From the NCBI RefSeq assembly GCF_003583365.1, contig NZ_QXED01000005.1, forward strand, positions 372,001-436,000: a stretch of DNA of 64,000 nucleotides, written 5' to 3'. Source of the DNA: Fibrisoma montanum. Its GTDB lineage: Bacteria > Bacteroidota > Bacteroidia > Cytophagales > Spirosomataceae. The position numbers and the translations under genes are program-made. Below the pieces are notes generated by a model, which saw only the letters and a list, made by a program, of their open reading frames with translations, was not told the DNA's origin and made no database searches. Shown here one piece after another: positions 4,041-10,035 of this stretch. Each line of letters starts with the position of its first letter. Within the stretch, counting starts at the first letter, position 1.

Positions 4041-5234
4041 ATGGCACTACCTAAAGTAAGTGTAACCTTAAAGAACGGCGGGCTGGGCCAGGTGGCTCCG
4101 TCCGACGATGCCGTCTTCGGGATGATCCTGAACGGTCTCGGTACGAACAATACGCCGTTCCTGCAACCGCGCCAACTCTTCTCACCCGACGACTTTGAAG
4201 CCTGGGTAACGGAAGCGGGTATGACAACCGGGCCGTATGTGGCTGAAGCTCGTCGTCAGATCAAAGACTTCTATTTGCTGGCTGGCAATGGGGCCGAACT
4301 GTTTGTGATGTTCGTTGACGGGGTTGCGACCACGACCCAACTGTTTGTCGATGGTCATGCCGCTTCGCTGATGCAGGCGTCACAGGGCCGTATTCGACTG
4401 ATCGGGGTTACGCGCTTCCTGGCGGCTGAACCGGCCGAACCGACGCTGGTCGAAGGGATCGACGCGGCCACGGCCAACGCCATCGACGAAGCGCATGCCT
4501 TCGCTCAGAGCTACGCCAATCAGAACTTACCCCTTCGTGTGTTGCTGGAAGCGAAGTATTTCGATGGTACGGCTGCTACGCTTCGCAACCTGAAGGGATT
4601 GACCTTTAACCGGGTTGGTCTGGTATTGGCCCGTAATTCGACGGCCGCTACTTCCTGCATGGGTCTGTTACTGGGTCGGCTTGCTTCGATTCCCGTTAAC
4701 CGCTCTATCGGACGGGTGAAGGACGGGCCGGTGATCGGCGTAGACGAAGCCTATCTGGGGCCTGCCGCTGTCAAGACGTTGAACGATGGCTACCTGGGCG
4801 CAATCCACGATAAGGGCTATATCTTCCTGCGTAAGCATCTGGGCCGGGGTGGGTTCTACTTCAATGCCGACCCGATGGCGACCGCCGACACAGATGACTA
4901 CAACCGACTGAACCGGGGCCGGGTGATCGACAAGGCGCATCGGATTGCCTACGATACGTTCCTGAACGAATTGCTGGACGAAGTGCTGGTCGATGAGGAC
5001 ACAGGTAAGATCGTGCCGACTACGATCAAACAGTACCAGGCGCGAATCGAACGGGCGATTGATCTGTCGATGACCGCCAACGGTGAGATCAGCGGAGTAC
5101 AGGCGTTCGTTGATCCGGATCAGGACATCTTAGGGACCAACACCCTGAACGTTGACCTTCGGATCACGCCAACCGGCTCGAATGAGCAGATCAAAATTAC
5201 GCTGGGACTCTTCAACCCACAGGCAGCCGTTTAA
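4041..5234 (+). CDS. Contractile tail sheath protein (DUF2586-like)
   Basis: 397 residues, resembling the DUF2586 family, which serves as tail sheath in Bacteroidota and Mu-like phages. Visible features are the N-terminal MALPKVSVTLKNGGLG strand and an internal region with GVTRFLAAEPAEPT. The C-terminal core has DYNRLNRGRVIDKAHRIAYD followed by helical segments and VDLRITPTGS, the type of C-terminal domain that packs on the tail tube in contractile systems. It is followed directly by the tube gene, as in other contractile phages. No membrane segment is present. The ATG follows ACCGTAACTTCAC. Confidence 0.85.
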   Translation: MALPKVSVTLKNGGLGQVAPSDDAVFGMILNGLGTNNTPFLQPRQLFSPDDFEAWVTEAGMTTGPYVAEARRQIKDFYLLAGNGAELFVMFVDGVATTTQLFVDGHAASLMQASQGRIRLIGVTRFLAAEPAEPTLVEGIDAATANAIDEAHAFAQSYANQNLPLRVLLEAKYFDGTAATLRNLKGLTFNRVGLVLARNSTAATSCMGLLLGRLASIPVNRSIGRVKDGPVIGVDEAYLGPAAVKTLNDGYLGAIHDKGYIFLRKHLGRGGFYFNADPMATADTDDYNRLNRGRVIDKAHRIAYDTFLNELLDEVLVDEDTGKIVPTTIKQYQARIERAIDLSMTANGEISGVQAFVDPDQDILGTNTLNVDLRITPTGSNEQIKITLGLFNPQAAV

Positions 5235-5294: not shown

Positions 5295-5711
5295 ATGCCA
5301 GCATCATTCAATTCAGAGCAATACCAGTACAGCGACGTGTCGGTCCAGATCGGCGACCGCGTGTTGGTTGGCTTGCGGGGCGTAAAGTATATGTCCGAGC
5401 AAGAGAAGGAACCCGTCTATGGCAAGGGTAATCAACCCCTGGCTATTCAACGCGGCAATAAGAAATACGAAGGCGAGATCAAGATACTCCAGGGTGAACT
5501 GGAACTGCTGATCGACAAGGCTCCCAACAAGGATATAATCGACTACCGCAACCTGACCATTACGGTTGCCTACTCGAACGGGGCCGGTCTAACGACTGAT
5601 AACCTGGTCGGTGTCGAGTTTAAGCAATCGCCGAAGGAGATGAACCAGAACGATAAGTTCATGGAAGTTACGCTTCCGATCCTCTTCCTGAAGTTGAAGC
5701 AAGGCGTATAG
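5295..5711 (+). CDS. Contractile tail tube protein
   Basis: 138 residues, beta-rich, beginning MPASFNSEQYQYSDV and containing VSVQIGDRVLVGLRGV and a KKYEGEIKILQGELE stretch, the look of phage tail tube proteins that line the inner tail channel. It follows the sheath gene, the standard order. It ends with TLPILFLKLKQGV. No signal peptide or membrane segment. Assignment rests on size, position and predicted beta content, not on a diagnostic motif. Confidence 0.75.
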   Translation: MPASFNSEQYQYSDVSVQIGDRVLVGLRGVKYMSEQEKEPVYGKGNQPLAIQRGNKKYEGEIKILQGELELLIDKAPNKDIIDYRNLTITVAYSNGAGLTTDNLVGVEFKQSPKEMNQNDKFMEVTLPILFLKLKQGV

Positions 5712-5713
5712 GG

Positions 5714-6013
5714 ATGATCGCGCAAATTAGCTCCGAAACGGTGGTCAGTTTGACGCTTAGTCAACTGATCGCCGTCCTGGTGTCACTGGGTACGCTGATA
5801 ACGTTTCTGGTTGCCGCCACTCGCTATGTGGAGCGTTACCGGATTCAGCTTACCCAGAACCAGGCCGATATTTCTGAGCTGACGCGGGTAGTTAAAGCGC
5901 AGCAAGAACAGATCGGCCGGCTGTCGGAGCAGGTAGCGACATTCTTTAAGATGTTCCAGTCGAAGTCAAAGACAACCCCTACCCGTCGCCCTGGTGACAA
6001 ACCCAATGTTTAA
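5714..6013 (+). CDS. Small membrane protein with coiled coil, probable lysis accessory
   Basis: 99 residues. One strong membrane segment (LIAVLVSLGTLITFLVAA, about residues 18-35) is followed by a heptad-rich helix (QNQADISELTRVVKAQQEQ, about 50-68) and a basic, Pro/Thr-rich tail. The start lies two bases after the tube stop, and the end overlaps the next small membrane gene. Together with the endolysin gene after it, this suggests the lysis cassette. It could be a holin, a spanin-like protein or a phage-encoded membrane anchor; no family motif settles it. Confidence 0.6.
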   Translation: MIAQISSETVVSLTLSQLIAVLVSLGTLITFLVAATRYVERYRIQLTQNQADISELTRVVKAQQEQIGRLSEQVATFFKMFQSKSKTTPTRRPGDKPNV

Positions 6014-6245
6014 ACACTTTTTCGAGAACCTGCCGCCAAAGATCAAGGTGCTGGTACATGCGCTCGACATGGCGATTCCGGCCGCGTATATGGCCGCTGT
6101 TGCCCTCAAACGTGATCTGTTGCACGACGTGCTTCAGCAAAAGCCTGAACTGGCTATCCTGTACATCGTCCTGGTTGCATTGGTTCGCTTCCTGGTCGAG
6201 CTGACGTTTGGACAAACCCCTAAATCACCGACCGATGCCCAGTAG
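6006..6245 (+). CDS. Putative holin
   Basis: 79 residues from the ATG at 6006; an upstream in-frame GTG at 5994 is possible. Two hydrophobic segments (about residues 17-33, ALDMAIPAAYMAAVAL, and 47-64, LAILYIVLVALVRFLVEL) are separated by a short polar turn, and the C terminus is polar. This size and topology fit a class II holin. The gene overlaps the coiled-coil membrane gene before it and the endolysin gene after it. Role inferred from topology and the adjacent endolysin. Confidence 0.6.
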   Translation: MFKHFFENLPPKIKVLVHALDMAIPAAYMAAVALKRDLLHDVLQQKPELAILYIVLVALVRFLVELTFGQTPKSPTDAQ

Positions 6246-6708
6246 CCGAAACATTGCCGATGCCGTCGTGACCCTGCAACGCGCCTGGTTATTTCTGAAG
6301 CAGGAGTACAACAGCCGCTACCCAAGCGACCCGGTTGTGATGCTGACGGAAGTACACCGTCCGGCTGAAGTGCAGCGGGCTTACTACGCCCAGGGACGCC
6401 AAAAGCTGTCCATCGTGAATCGGCTCCGTCAAGGGGCGGGGCTGTCGGTGATCTCGGAAGCGGAGAACCGCCGGAAGGTCACCTTCAAGCAACCTGGTAC
6501 CAGTAAGCACGAGAAGATGCCTAGTCAGGCGTTCGACATCGCCTTCCGCAATCCGGACGGTACGCTGAACTGGGACGAGAAGTATTTCGACCGGGCCGCC
6601 CGCATCATCCGGGAACGCTTTCCGAACGTGACCTGGGGCGCTGACTGGGACCGCGACGGTCGGAGCGATGACGAAAAGTTCGTGGATCGCCCTCATTTTG
6701 AAGTGTAA
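6235..6708 (+). CDS. Phage endolysin, M15-type D-Ala/L-Ala peptidase
   Basis: 157 residues from ATG 6235 (MPSSRNIADAV); the frame opens earlier with a TTG at 6208, but the ATG overlapping the holin stop fits better. The fold looks like the VanY/T5-endolysin M15 metallopeptidases. A SKHEKMPSQAFDIAF segment supplies the first zinc ligands (His and Asp), and the C-terminal DRPHFEV supplies the last His. An early EVHRPAEVQRAYYAQGR helix matches the family substrate-side segment. It would cut peptide bonds in peptidoglycan stems to release progeny. There is no signal peptide, so the adjacent holin is expected to give access to the wall. Confidence 0.85.
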   Translation: MPSSRNIADAVVTLQRAWLFLKQEYNSRYPSDPVVMLTEVHRPAEVQRAYYAQGRQKLSIVNRLRQGAGLSVISEAENRRKVTFKQPGTSKHEKMPSQAFDIAFRNPDGTLNWDEKYFDRAARIIRERFPNVTWGADWDRDGRSDDEKFVDRPHFEV

Positions 6709-6749: not shown

Positions 6750-6842
6750 ATGACAACTGTAACTGATAAGCAAATCGCCGTTGCCGCCGATCAACTTCCC
6801 GCTGGCGTTACTGGAATGACAACTGTAACCGATAAGCAAATC
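6750..6842 (+). repeat. 27-bp in-frame duplication of the chaperone start
   Basis: The block 6750-6776 recurs at 6816-6842 with one difference in 27 bases (CTGATAAG versus CCGATAAG). Both copies begin with ATG ACA ACT GTA AC and keep the same frame, so the gene has two nested starts 66 bp apart. Confidence 0.9.
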
Positions 6843-7121
6843 AATGATTGGAAAGAGAAACACGGCGAAATCTTCGCTATAGATTTTGAGGGCGAAGACA
6901 ATCAGACCATTGTTGGCTACTTCCGTAAGCCTAACCGTGTTGAGATGAACTACATCAGTACGTTTCACAACCAACCCTTCAAGATGCAGGAACAATTAGT
7001 TAAAGCCTGCTTTTTGGGTGGCGACACCCGAATCCTACATGTGGATGGTTTTATGTTGGGCGCGGCTCAGGCGCTCAATGAACTACTGGAGGTTAAGCGG
7101 GGTGAGCTAAAAAAGTTATAG
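6750..7121 (+). CDS. Tail assembly chaperone, short (zero-frame) form
   Basis: 123 residues with no membrane segment. It lies just before the tape measure gene, where contractile and siphovirus phages encode the tail assembly chaperone (lambda G, P2 E type). The core KPNRVEMNYISTFHN...LVKACFLGGD resembles chaperone proteins annotated upstream of tape measures. The zero-frame product ends at a TAG seven bases after an A-AAA-AAG slippery heptamer. The first 27 bases of the gene are duplicated 66 bp downstream in the same frame, giving a second possible start at 6816 (101-residue product). Confidence 0.75.
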   Translation: MTTVTDKQIAVAADQLPAGVTGMTTVTDKQINDWKEKHGEIFAIDFEGEDNQTIVGYFRKPNRVEMNYISTFHNQPFKMQEQLVKACFLGGDTRILHVDGFMLGAAQALNELLEVKRGELKKL

Positions 7122-7297
7122 AGGAGACCCCAGAACTGACAGGTACTGTCGAGTTGATGGATCTCCCCGAAATCAACGCCTTACTTCGCTACTTCTTTCA
7201 CATTGACCCGGACGCTTTGTCCGATGAAGACTTCGCCCTTCGCTGGCGTGAACTACAATGGGTGCTTAAGCTAACCCGACCCTTCTCAAAAGACTGA
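6750..7297 (+). CDS. Tail assembly chaperone, -1 frameshifted long form
   Basis: If ribosomes slip back one base at 7109-7115, reading continues as VIEETPELTG... for 60 codons to a TGA at 7295-7297, giving a product of about 182 residues. The extension is acidic at first and then helical with many aromatic residues (LLRYFFHIDPDAL, LRWRELQWVLKL), and has no stop. It ends overlapping the tape-measure ATG (TGATG). This matches the G/GT (E/E+E') logic known in lambda and P2, where the long form binds the tape measure. The extension has no own start in the first 14 codons; an ATG at 7157 exists. Confidence 0.7.
7109..7150 (+). promoter_or_regulatory. Programmed -1 frameshift site with downstream hairpin
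   Basis: The heptamer A-AAA-AAG at 7109-7115 is in the correct phase (CTA AAA AAG). A GGAGG sequence at 7088-7092 lies 16 bases upstream and could act as an internal stimulator. A perfect GACAG-GTA-CTGTC hairpin at 7138-7150 lies 22 bases downstream. The zero-frame stop is at 7119-7121. The site type is well known from dnaX and phage G/T genes; its use here is inferred. Confidence 0.7.
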
Positions 7298-10035
7298 TGC
7301 GTTACGGCTGGGATTTATATGTAAACGACCTGATGAGTTCGCCCCTGATGAAGATGGCGAACCTGTATCAATCCACGGTCTCTACATTGACCAGAGGGGC
7401 GTCGGCGATGGCTGGGTCGTTACAGCCGGTCGCTCGTCAGGTGGACAACCTGAACGGGCGGCTGGATCAGTTGCGCCGTCAGCGTAATCTATCGGTCAAT
7501 ACCGACGAGGTAGAGCAGGCCGAAGCAGAGATCGGACGGCTGGAACGTCGGATCGATCAACTGAATCGACCGGCTTCTATCAACATCACAGAACCGCCGT
7601 TGGCCAGGGCCTTTCGTCCGACAACGGTGGTTCCTCATGCACCAACGGCCGGATGGTCTACCCGGCAATTATCGTTTGACCAGGGCGCGGCCAGTCCAGT
7701 TGCGCCCCTTGCTACGGGGCGTCCAAGCTGGTCCGCTCCGATGCCCGAACGACAGCCGGTCGCTCCGATTCCCAGTCCCCAACCATCGCGGAACTTTACC
7801 GACGTTGTGAGGGGCTGGGCGTCGGCGTTCGTGCCCGCTCGTCAGTCGGCGGAAGGTCTTCAGGCTCGGTTAGATGATCTGGTCAGACGCCGGGCGCTGG
7901 CTGTGGACTGGGAAGCCGCTTCCCGGATCGACCGCGACATTGCCCGGACGGAAAGCCAGTTGACCAGGCTCCAGGAGCGGGCGAACCGTCCAGCGCGGGG
8001 CTTTGTCGATTCGGTCGTGTCGGGTATGGGTCGGCTGTCGGGATCGTTTGGGCCGGTACGTCAGGATGCTGATGAGCTGAATGCCCGGTTAGATGACCTT
8101 CGTCAGCGCCGGGCACTCATGGTCGATGCCAGCCAGATCGGACGGGCTGATCGTGACATCGCCCGGATGGAACGGCAACTGGCCAGAGTGCAGGAACGGG
8201 CGAACCGACCCGCGCCGTCTGGCTTCTTTGGTTCGTTGCGGAATAACGTCAACCGTTTTGTTGGGGCGCTGATGCCTGCCGGTGTGCAGTTGGCAACGCT
8301 CCGTCAGCAACTCGAACGGGCGACCGAACGCCGGGAGCTGGCGATTGGTACGACCGCGATCCGGAACGCCCAACGCGAAGTCGAACGGCTCCAGCGTCAG
8401 ATCAATCAACTGGAGGGCAATGGGGGCGGTGAGCAGAAAGAAGGTATGTTCTCGTCGCTACGGTCGTCGGCCCTGGGCTACATTGCTGGTGCTGGGTTGC
8501 TAGCCGGGGCGGGTGCGTTCTTTAGTTCTGGAATGCAGCGCGAACAGACCCAGGTTGCCTATGAGCAATTCTTGGGTAAGGACACGAAGCCGGTGATGAG
8601 TCAGTTGGATGTATTTGCCAACAAGACGCCGTTCGAGAATGACCAGGTGTACAAGGGCGGCCAAAGTCTCCTGTCGGTTGGCTTTACCGGGCAACAGTTG
8701 ATCCCTGAAATGACGGGGATCGGCAACATGGCAGCCGGTGCCCAAAAGGACTTCAATGAACTGACGGCCGCTTACGCCAAGATCAAAGCAAAGGGCTTTA
8801 TCGACGGCGGTGAGTTACACCAGGAGTTCGGCGGTACCAGGCTCATGGACCAACTGAAAGCGAACCTGGGCGTTAACGGCGAGGAACTGTTTAAGCTGGC
8901 AGAGCAACGTAAGATTAAGTTCGAGGATGTCCAAAAAGCCATTGGTGATTTATCGTCTCCAGGAGGGGCATACGGTGGTGCAATGGATAAGCAAAGCCAA
9001 ACGGCCTTTGGTAAGTTCTCAACCTTCCTGGGTACGCTGAAGCTGAAGTTCTCAACTTGGGCGGCTGGCTTCAATGATTCATTAGGGAAGTTGTTCGATT
9101 TCGGTACGGCGTTGATCGATCAGATTGATCCGTTCTTAGCCAAACTTCAGCCGGTGTTTCAGGTGGTCGTAACCGGCATGGGGCAACTGTGGACGGCTAC
9201 GGAGCCAGTACGCACCCTGATCGGCGACCTGCTTACGTGGGTGGTCAACCTGTGGACCGGCTTCGGTGGGTTGGGGGGAGCCACCAGCGGCCTGTCGGTC
9301 ATCTTTGACGTACTGGCGTCGGTGGTCTGGACAATCAGCACTGCGCTTCAGTTCGTCGGTAACATCGTCTTATGGCTGGCCAGTAGTCCGTATGTCCAAC
9401 TGATCGCCATTATCTACGGGGCCGTTCGAGCGGCCATGATGCTAAACGCGGCAATGATGGCGAACCCGGTCGGCTTTATCGTCGGTGGGATCATGGCCGT
9501 AGTTGCCGCTATCAAGTACCTGTGGGATAACGTGGACGGCTTCCGGCAAACCCTCATGAAGTTGTGGGAAGTAGCCAAGTCAATTTTCGGCCGGATCGGT
9601 GCCATCGCCAAAGCCGCCTTCACCTTCGACTTCGCGGAGCTGGCCAGGCAGTTAGGAGCCGCCTGGACGGAAGGGACCAGCAACGGCCAGAAGCGGTTCG
9701 ATGACGACAAGAAACGGCGGGAATCGGAGAAGGCGGGCGCAAAGCCTAAGCCCATCGCTGGTCCTAATTCGGCCTTCGCCAATAACCCCTTCGCCAAAAC
9801 GCCGGGGCTGGCCAGCGCAGGCAATGCCGCTGATAAGGATAAGAAGTCGGGTATTCAGTCAGGCGTGACCGGAGCCAAGTCCACCAACATCACGATCAAT
9901 CTTAAGAGTCTGGTCGATGGGGGTGTTCACGTGCATAGTACAACCTTAACCGAAGGGTTAGGCGACATAGAAAGGAAAGTAAAGGAGGTGCTTTTGAGTG
10001 TCCTTAATTCAGCTAGTTCAATCGAGACAGTGTAA
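7297..10035 (+). CDS. Tape measure protein
   Basis: 912 residues. It sets tail length and is a membrane-interacting injection protein. The N-terminal 370 residues hold four copies of a 45-50 residue coiled-coil unit (see repeat entry) with Pro-rich linkers. Then come a Gly/Ala membrane-like stretch near 390-410 (LGYIAGAGLLAGAGAFF) and a central domain of tape-measure type (LDVFANKTPFENDQVYKGGQ). Several hydrophobic segments follow between residues 610 and 740. The C terminus is Lys/Asp-rich. The ATG overlaps the stop of the frameshifted chaperone. At about 0.15 nm per residue it predicts a tail near 135 nm (inference). Confidence 0.9.
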   Translation: MRYGWDLYVNDLMSSPLMKMANLYQSTVSTLTRGASAMAGSLQPVARQVDNLNGRLDQLRRQRNLSVNTDEVEQAEAEIGRLERRIDQLNRPASINITEPPLARAFRPTTVVPHAPTAGWSTRQLSFDQGAASPVAPLATGRPSWSAPMPERQPVAPIPSPQPSRNFTDVVRGWASAFVPARQSAEGLQARLDDLVRRRALAVDWEAASRIDRDIARTESQLTRLQERANRPARGFVDSVVSGMGRLSGSFGPVRQDADELNARLDDLRQRRALMVDASQIGRADRDIARMERQLARVQERANRPAPSGFFGSLRNNVNRFVGALMPAGVQLATLRQQLERATERRELAIGTTAIRNAQREVERLQRQINQLEGNGGGEQKEGMFSSLRSSALGYIAGAGLLAGAGAFFSSGMQREQTQVAYEQFLGKDTKPVMSQLDVFANKTPFENDQVYKGGQSLLSVGFTGQQLIPEMTGIGNMAAGAQKDFNELTAAYAKIKAKGFIDGGELHQEFGGTRLMDQLKANLGVNGEELFKLAEQRKIKFEDVQKAIGDLSSPGGAYGGAMDKQSQTAFGKFSTFLGTLKLKFSTWAAGFNDSLGKLFDFGTALIDQIDPFLAKLQPVFQVVVTGMGQLWTATEPVRTLIGDLLTWVVNLWTGFGGLGGATSGLSVIFDVLASVVWTISTALQFVGNIVLWLASSPYVQLIAIIYGAVRAAMMLNAAMMANPVGFIVGGIMAVVAAIKYLWDNVDGFRQTLMKLWEVAKSIFGRIGAIAKAAFTFDFAELARQLGAAWTEGTSNGQKRFDDDKKRRESEKAGAKPKPIAGPNSAFANNPFAKTPGLASAGNAADKDKKSGIQSGVTGAKSTNITINLKSLVDGGVHVHSTTLTEGLGDIERKVKEVLLSVLNSASSIETV
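7423..8418 (+). repeat. Four coiled-coil units within the tape measure
   Basis: Units at about residues 43-92, 181-232, 255-306 and 330-374 share the scheme LxxRLDDLRxRRAL-x(10-15)-DRDIARxExQLxRxQERANRPA. Units two and three are nearly identical over 45 residues; one and four are more diverged. Unit spacing is uneven because of Pro-rich inserts. Confidence 0.85.

Follow-up and report, generated by a model that had tools for sequence, protein, structure and literature searches.

Does the tail assembly chaperone-type gene of a Mu-like prophage in a Cytophagales host encode one product or two? The gene lies in a 64,000-nucleotide (nt) stretch of DNA that we analysed as a whole and refer to as the window (positions 372001–436000 of contig C35 in a 7.8-Mb genome), where it occupies 6750..7121 on the plus strand and ends with the codons CTA AAA AAG TTA TAG. 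An initial annotation, made from the letters of the window, had placed an in-phase A_AAA_AAG slippery heptamer near the end of this gene, and the heptamer is found base for base at 7109..7115 (+), where it encodes Lys-Lys in the 0 frame; the 0-frame stop TAG (7119..7121, +) follows one sense codon past the slip site. The −1 frame holds no stop across 7106–7297 and, counted from 7115, provides a C-terminal (T-like) domain of 60 codons (7115..7297, +) ending with a TGA (7295–7297) that has one base in common with the tape measure ATG at 7297, exactly as annotated. A shift would yield a product of 122 + 60 = 182 amino acids (aa) from the ATG at 6750, a computed length that agrees with the size given in that annotation. 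The first 27 nt of the gene, ATG included, are repeated in the same frame from 6816 with a single mismatch, which leaves the true start uncertain and makes a 160-aa shifted form possible too; the 0-frame (G-like) product is 123 aa long from ATG 6750 or 101 aa from ATG 6816, the direct repeat standing at both ATGs.

Taken by itself, the layout of the window is within chance. The window contains 57 non-overlapping ORFs of 100 aa or more. An in-phase canonical heptamer (X_XXY_YYZ, where Y is A or T) lies in the overlap near the end of 3 of them, a −1 extension of 50 codons or more follows 15, and one, the chaperone gene, has both features; one gene that ends with heptamer and −1 extension is thus seen against approximately 0.8 expected under independence. 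It is the comparison with relatives that makes the frameshift convincing. To that end, 200 loci from IMG/VR, a genome collection, further genomes and phage records were assembled (the viral scan covering the best 80 of 166 relatives and the genome-collection scan the best 80 of 81) and reduced to 166 distinct sequences and then to 147 representatives with less than 90% identity over 250 nt. Pieces shorter than 200 nt were left out, including L032, L099, L192 and L200, whose contigs end soon past the 0-frame stop; L005 and L023, which are further copies of the window, stand outside the analysis, and a seven-member alignment (A1), too diverse for the collection scans, was set aside.

The initial annotation had suggested looking for homologs with the same −1 overlap, and the −1 frame extends past the 0-frame stop in 140 of the 147 non-redundant relatives. 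The counts given below exclude the other seven (L015–L017, L019, L020, L025 and L026), which are without a matching −1 block. A profile of the C-terminal domain matched the −1 frame of 136 of the 140 relatives at E 0.001 (130 of 134 once the profile-building rows are removed) and, at the same threshold, matched the 0 or +1 frame in none of the 140. The four relatives short of the cut-off are L013 (E 0.0088, on a contig that ends early), L171 (0.023), L178 (0.061) and L179 (1.7). Substitutions in the −1 frame fall mostly at third codon positions, with 358, 190 and 880 at the first, second and third positions across 57 close pairs of relatives, and 8, 10 and 25 between the window and a second copy of the gene in the same genome. 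This frame thus stays open, is conserved among the relatives and evolves under purifying selection, as in a G/GT-type gene pair. A sequencing error or the decay of one fused gene could be read from L025 and L026, where the block seems by eye to be fused in frame, but the recurrence of the layout in the 140 relatives, drawn from many records, and the third-position bias of their −1 frame render this reading extremely improbable.

A Bacteroidota taxon stands in the title of 74 of the 80 genome-collection loci (the best 80 of 81); by title, the six exceptions are L127, L133 and L144, without assignment, and metagenome-assembled genomes (MAGs) labelled Chlorobiaceae (L147), Clostridium (L162) and Lachnospiraceae (L176), of which L162 and L176 are possibly misbinned. 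The records of the loci, which are of phage or prophage type, name Bacteroidales, Flavobacteriales, Cytophagales, Sphingobacteriales and Chitinophagales, and Flavobacterium phage fF4 (Winoviridae) is among the relatives, with the site G_GGA_AAG. The five Flavobacterium-type homologs without a matching −1 extension (L015–L017, L019 and L020) may come from a different contractile system. The genomes of L025 and L026 (G377 and G299), in which the C-terminal block seems to lie in a single frame with the rest, each also hold one of these block-less homologs (L019 and L020), approximately 16 and 8 kb away.

A canonical heptamer is present in the register of the window in 64 of the 140 relatives, elsewhere in the overlap in 7 and nowhere in the overlap in 69. 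Register-based counts were made on 134 relatives, without L003, L009, L014, L037, L094 and L146, whose canonical heptamer lies elsewhere in the overlap; L127, which combines GGAAAAG with a canonical heptamer at another place, stays among the 134. All 64 in-register heptamers have AAA as the P-site codon, followed in the A site by AAG (36), AAC (19), AAA (7) or AAT (2). The 70 relatives without AAA in the P site have G_GAA_AAR (16), N_GTA_AAG (21), G_GTA_AAC (8), G_GGG_GAR (8), ACA, GCA or TCA followed by AAR (10), or others (7), the non-heptamer sites being assigned by register and not by motif alone. The base before P-site AAA is A in 64 of 64 cases (18.1 expected), the base before P-site GAA is G in 17 of 17 (5.8 expected), and Val in the P site is encoded by GTA in 29 of 30 (10.4 expected). 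Slip-codon choice is far from neutral, with the reservation that the representatives are still related, so the codon-choice probabilities overstate independence. At GTA_AAG sites the preceding base is free (G 12, C 6, A 2 and T 1), as single-tRNA slipping would allow, and the relatives without a canonical heptamer appear to carry sites that are constrained though relaxed. A quick tree of the 134 rows, many of whose branches are weak (29 of 131 starred), calls for a minimum of 51 changes of heptamer, 28 of P codon and 24 of A codon.

Two other ways of expressing the −1 frame were weighed. Transcriptional slippage on the A6 run of the window, or on the longer A runs of L014 and L018, would yield a shifted mRNA from the same layout. 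A6 is short for transcriptional slippage, and many relatives keep the arrangement with a longest run of three, in sites such as GGTAAAG, GGTAAAC, CGTAAAG and AACAAAG, so that, arguing for the window from its relatives, we regard slippage of the polymerase as very unlikely. Alternatively, the −1 frame could be a separate small gene, with its own start or coupled at the 0-frame stop: an in-frame ATG of the window (7157–7159) would give a 46-aa product that includes the conserved block, the fF4 record annotates a separate 47-aa ORF at the −1 block, and ATG, GTG or TTG occurs before the last 36 codons in 83 of the 139 relatives with a complete −1 frame. Yet such a start is missing from 56 of the 139 and ATG occurs in no more than 39, the second copy has no Met at that position (ESCDLAGI), and independent starts would leave the slip-codon constraint unexplained; a gene of its own is in our judgement improbable. 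Conservation among the relatives strongly supports the initial annotation in its proposal of programmed −1 frameshifting by the ribosome in a tail assembly chaperone-type gene, here one that belongs to a contractile-tail prophage of Mu-like kind, and we consider such frameshifting highly probable.

Slipping on an A_AAG tetramer is covered in passages of a review of frameshifting (PMC5009743), and GGGGGAA appears among annotated actinobacteriophage frameshift sites in an excerpt of PMC10885494. Some of the sites without a canonical heptamer in our relatives are of these kinds, A_AAG-like or G_GGG_GAR.

The surroundings of the gene fit such a reading. By family matches, its neighbours are capsid, sheath, tube-like, tape measure and baseplate-hub genes, including a tail sheath (DUF2586; phrog_907) at 4041..5234 (+), a tail-tube-like protein at 5295..5711 (+) and a 912-aa tape measure protein at 7297..10035 (+; phrog_991, 1.8e-25; PF20155, 2.3e-9, below the curated cut-off). 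The product of 5295..5711 matches the phrog_4579 tail protein (1.4e-14) and best matches phrog_9206 (7e-29), which is labelled major head protein; we call it tube-like from its position after the sheath. The order of tube-like gene, three ORFs (5714–6708), chaperone and tape measure gene is the position expected of a G/GT-type gene. Approximately 26 kb upstream of the window start, matches to a transposase (phrog_310, 1.7e-21) and a DNA transposition protein (phrog_296, 1.2e-34) mark the prophage element as Mu-like. Elsewhere, the long downstream ORF is a tape-measure family match in 8 of the 8 loci scanned besides L009, which has hub-like genes there, and 110 of the 126 loci with flanks have a downstream open frame of 400 codons or more. 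Flavobacterium phage fF4 has hub-like genes downstream of the chaperone, and in Chryseobacterium and two Flavobacteriaceae loci the downstream ORFs have a size like that of the hub-like genes of fF4.

The second chaperone copy lies approximately 18 kb away on the opposite strand and is 66–68% identical to that of the window in the 0 frame and 75% identical in the −1 frame at the amino acid level, with the same heptamer at the same place. There the tape measure gene is upstream of the chaperone gene and the frameshift layout is still present, and for this reason we reject the reading of the −1 frame as leader sequence for the tape measure gene. The junction with the tape measure ATG, to which the initial annotation had drawn attention, accordingly holds for the window and is no conserved trait. 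The second tape measure and chaperone module, in reversed order and on the opposite strand of the same prophage region, spans C35:353926–363884, outside the window (L233 and L234). The stretch between the two tail modules includes an IS605-type OrfB/TnpB gene (PF01385, 1.9e-32; L234:6452–7654, equal to C35:366452–367654).

The short form belongs to phrog_19076, a family of unknown function (E 1.2e-21 for the window gene; 50 of 50 members scanned match), and the profile of this family stops at the end of the short form (101 of 101 positions). For the −1 block, no Pfam or PHROG family was matched at E 0.001 in the 49 members scanned. Neither part bears a tail assembly chaperone label in the family libraries scanned, in which the short form has no Pfam match above chance. 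An AlphaFold2 model of the short form (pLDDT 90) was compared with known structures by Foldseek, which returned 3fgx (E 1.4e-4, TM 0.61) and, weakly, the HK97 chaperone 2ob9 (E 0.41, probability 0.54); among viral models, the top hits were uncharacterised proteins (E as low as 4.7e-6), and entries named "tail assembly chaperone" ranked lower, at E 0.012 and 0.033. When solved structures were searched with a sequence profile, the lowest E-value was 0.15 (3fgx). Sequence identities to 2ob9 and 3fgx (RBSTP2171, titled uncharacterised) are 9% and 19%, respectively, and the structural matches hint at no more than a modest resemblance to the chaperone fold.

Two well-known systems invite comparison. 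The slip site of lambda gpG/gpGT is G_GGA_AAG, and the heptamer of Escherichia coli dnaX is A_AAA_AAG. Unlike lambda, the window has the site A_AAA_AAG (fF4 has the lambda one) and belongs to a contractile, Mu-like phage, and its short form and −1 block have no sequence match to any named chaperone family. The likeness to lambda is one of layout; with dnaX and IS-type −1 sites, which act on A_AAG tetramers, our loci share the kinds of stimulator, an upstream Shine–Dalgarno (SD) sequence and a downstream structure, and the relatives use A_AAG-like sites, as far as the relevant passages of the review set these systems out (PMC5009743). In contrast to dnaX and IS-type systems, the hosts here are Bacteroidia, in which the anti-SD is described as sequestered (PMC9976891, in part).

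Upstream of the slip site, the initial annotation had singled out a GGAGG. It is present at 7088..7092 (+), 16 nt before the heptamer, and is the strongest SD-like run of the window (−10.5 kcal/mol), but the second copy does not preserve it (−4.1 kcal/mol at that place) and instead shares the weaker GGGGTGA (7099..7105, +; −9.3 kcal/mol in both copies), near the family-wide position. These pairing energies use the general bacterial anti-SD, since a search of the host assembly, rated 99.98% complete, turned up no 16S rRNA gene; that search also missed 5 of 14 control genomes. Across the family, Glu at codon −4 is encoded by GAG in 49 of 72 cases (24.2 expected), and in 10 of 13 after clustering at 50% identity (31 rows; 3.7 expected), while Glu codons elsewhere in the chaperone gene are GAG in 182 of 501 (175.3 expected). 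No enrichment is seen for AAG at codon −5, a codon that would extend the SD-like run (23 of 50 with 18.5 expected; z 1.4). Of the 134 loci, 47 have GAGG 7 nt upstream of the heptamer and 15 have it 16 nt upstream; for GGAGG the numbers are 22 at 7 nt and 3 at 16 nt, the arrangement of the window. Against synonymous resampling (133 of 134 loci), anti-SD complementarity is in clearest excess beside the site (z −5.5 to −6.5) and in weaker excess elsewhere (to z −2.8, 29–35 nt upstream). The 7-nt spacing of the family run and the 16-nt spacing of the window GGAGG compare with 9–14 nt reviewed for −1 sites in the section concerned of PMC5009743.

Downstream, a GACAG/CTGTC hairpin had been annotated, and its two arms are found at 7138–7142 and 7146–7150, 22 nt after the site; the complete element is larger, the hairpin being the tip (7138–7150) of a predicted 44-nt stem-loop of 16 bp (7123..7166, +) that starts 7 nt after the heptamer. 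The 60 nt folded give −18.6 kcal/mol (z −2.51) in the window, and the second copy has a stem-loop at the same place (−22.5 kcal/mol, z −2.31). Between the two copies, 3 of the 16 pairs are changed on both sides and 4 are broken, and 75 of 500 shuffles do as well; with two sequences only, the covariation is suggestive. Family-wide, the 60 nt downstream of the site have a mean z of −1.23 (n = 134) against −0.08, −0.48 and −0.57 for controls, and the first predicted helix begins 5–8 nt past the site in 57 of 134 loci and 0–3 nt past it in 45. For seven A_AAA_AAC loci 17 pairs are predicted, of which 6 show changes on both sides and 7 are disrupted in one or more of the sequences. The SD-like GAG accompanies A_AAA_AAG (19 of 20) and G_GAA_AAR (9 of 9), and strong downstream folding (mean −21.3 kcal/mol) accompanies A_AAA_AAC sites, a link between site type and stimulator type that is confounded by clade.

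GAGG is absent in 6 of the 8 Weeksellaceae rows listed, among which we count Apibacter; some rows are duplicates, and they are too few to conclude. Bacteroidia ribosomes are reported not to recognise SD sequences, the 16S tail being sequestered (PMC9976891, in part), and prfB frameshifting is reported in 523 of 726 genomes of such bacteria and as absent in Weeksellaceae (PMC8710568, in part). With the anti-SD hidden during initiation, SD-like pairing would need it to be free at an elongation pause. Tentatively, and with somewhat more doubt than confidence, we propose that Bacteroidota phages drive −1 frameshifting by internal SD-like pairing despite an anti-SD hidden at initiation, and that two types of stimulator may be interchangeable: SD-like runs at A_AAA_AAG and G_GAA_AAR, and strong stem-loops at A_AAA_AAC.

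The tRNA set of the host is consistent with slipping on A_AAA_AAG. Scoring 150 of 227 candidates yielded 40 host tRNA genes; the 30 that were read include two for tRNA-Lys, both with the anticodon UUU, and the remaining 10 measure 82–89 nt, the size of Leu, Ser and Tyr tRNAs. A tRNA-Lys(CUU) pattern is absent from the host genome, which has two occurrences of the UUU pattern; AAG therefore appears to be decoded by the UUU tRNA, like in E. coli. Such reading seems to favour slipping on A_AAA_AAG. A tRNA-Lys(CUU) was considered as a cause of the A-site codon choice and set aside: its pattern, searched in exact form so that counts are lower bounds, is present in 10 of 73 genomes of the same class or nearer and in 0 of 12 of the same order or nearer. 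Among genomes labelled as the same phylum it occurs in 131 of 223, against 10 of 73 of the same class or nearer.

What the analysis shows is the layout of the sequence, the conservation of both frames, selection on the slip codons, a predicted stem-loop and the tRNA-Lys set of the host; from these features we infer that shifting occurs, how efficient it would be, which stimulators would act and what the two products would do. The majority of ribosomes would read the short chaperone and stop at 7119–7121. A minority would be delayed on A_AAA_AAG with the stem-loop 7 nt ahead, probably aided by the SD-like run behind, and tRNA-Lys(UUU) would slip from AAA-AAG to AAA-AAA, adding the 60-aa C-terminal domain. 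If the lambda G/GT scheme is taken as the model, binding of the tape measure protein would fall to the short form, and the long form would deliver tail-tube subunits to this protein.

In the main text of open-access articles, we found no description of such a frameshift in Bacteroidota phages. A genome-wide frameshift survey that included 22 Bacteroidetes genomes tested an HK97-like chaperone cluster, with 6–7% shifting, and names no such case in the sections concerned (PMC3711429); the pertinent portions of PMC4615864 and PMC7886860 likewise hold no description of a chaperone frameshift in a Bacteroidota phage. The initial annotation had called sites of this kind seldom described in Bacteroidota, which agrees with our search; the sites themselves are not rare and look like the rule in this chaperone family. 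The mechanism is thus of a known kind, in a chaperone family for which no frameshift description was found, and we judge the frameshift very likely to be real. With it, a function is suggested for phrog_19076 and a conserved C-terminal domain absent from Pfam and PHROGs is recovered. The relatives offer about 140 natural frameshift sites, with much slip-codon turnover, in bacteria with an occluded anti-SD, and how internal SD-like runs act where the anti-SD is occluded, an issue raised for prfB (PMC8710568, in part), becomes directly testable.
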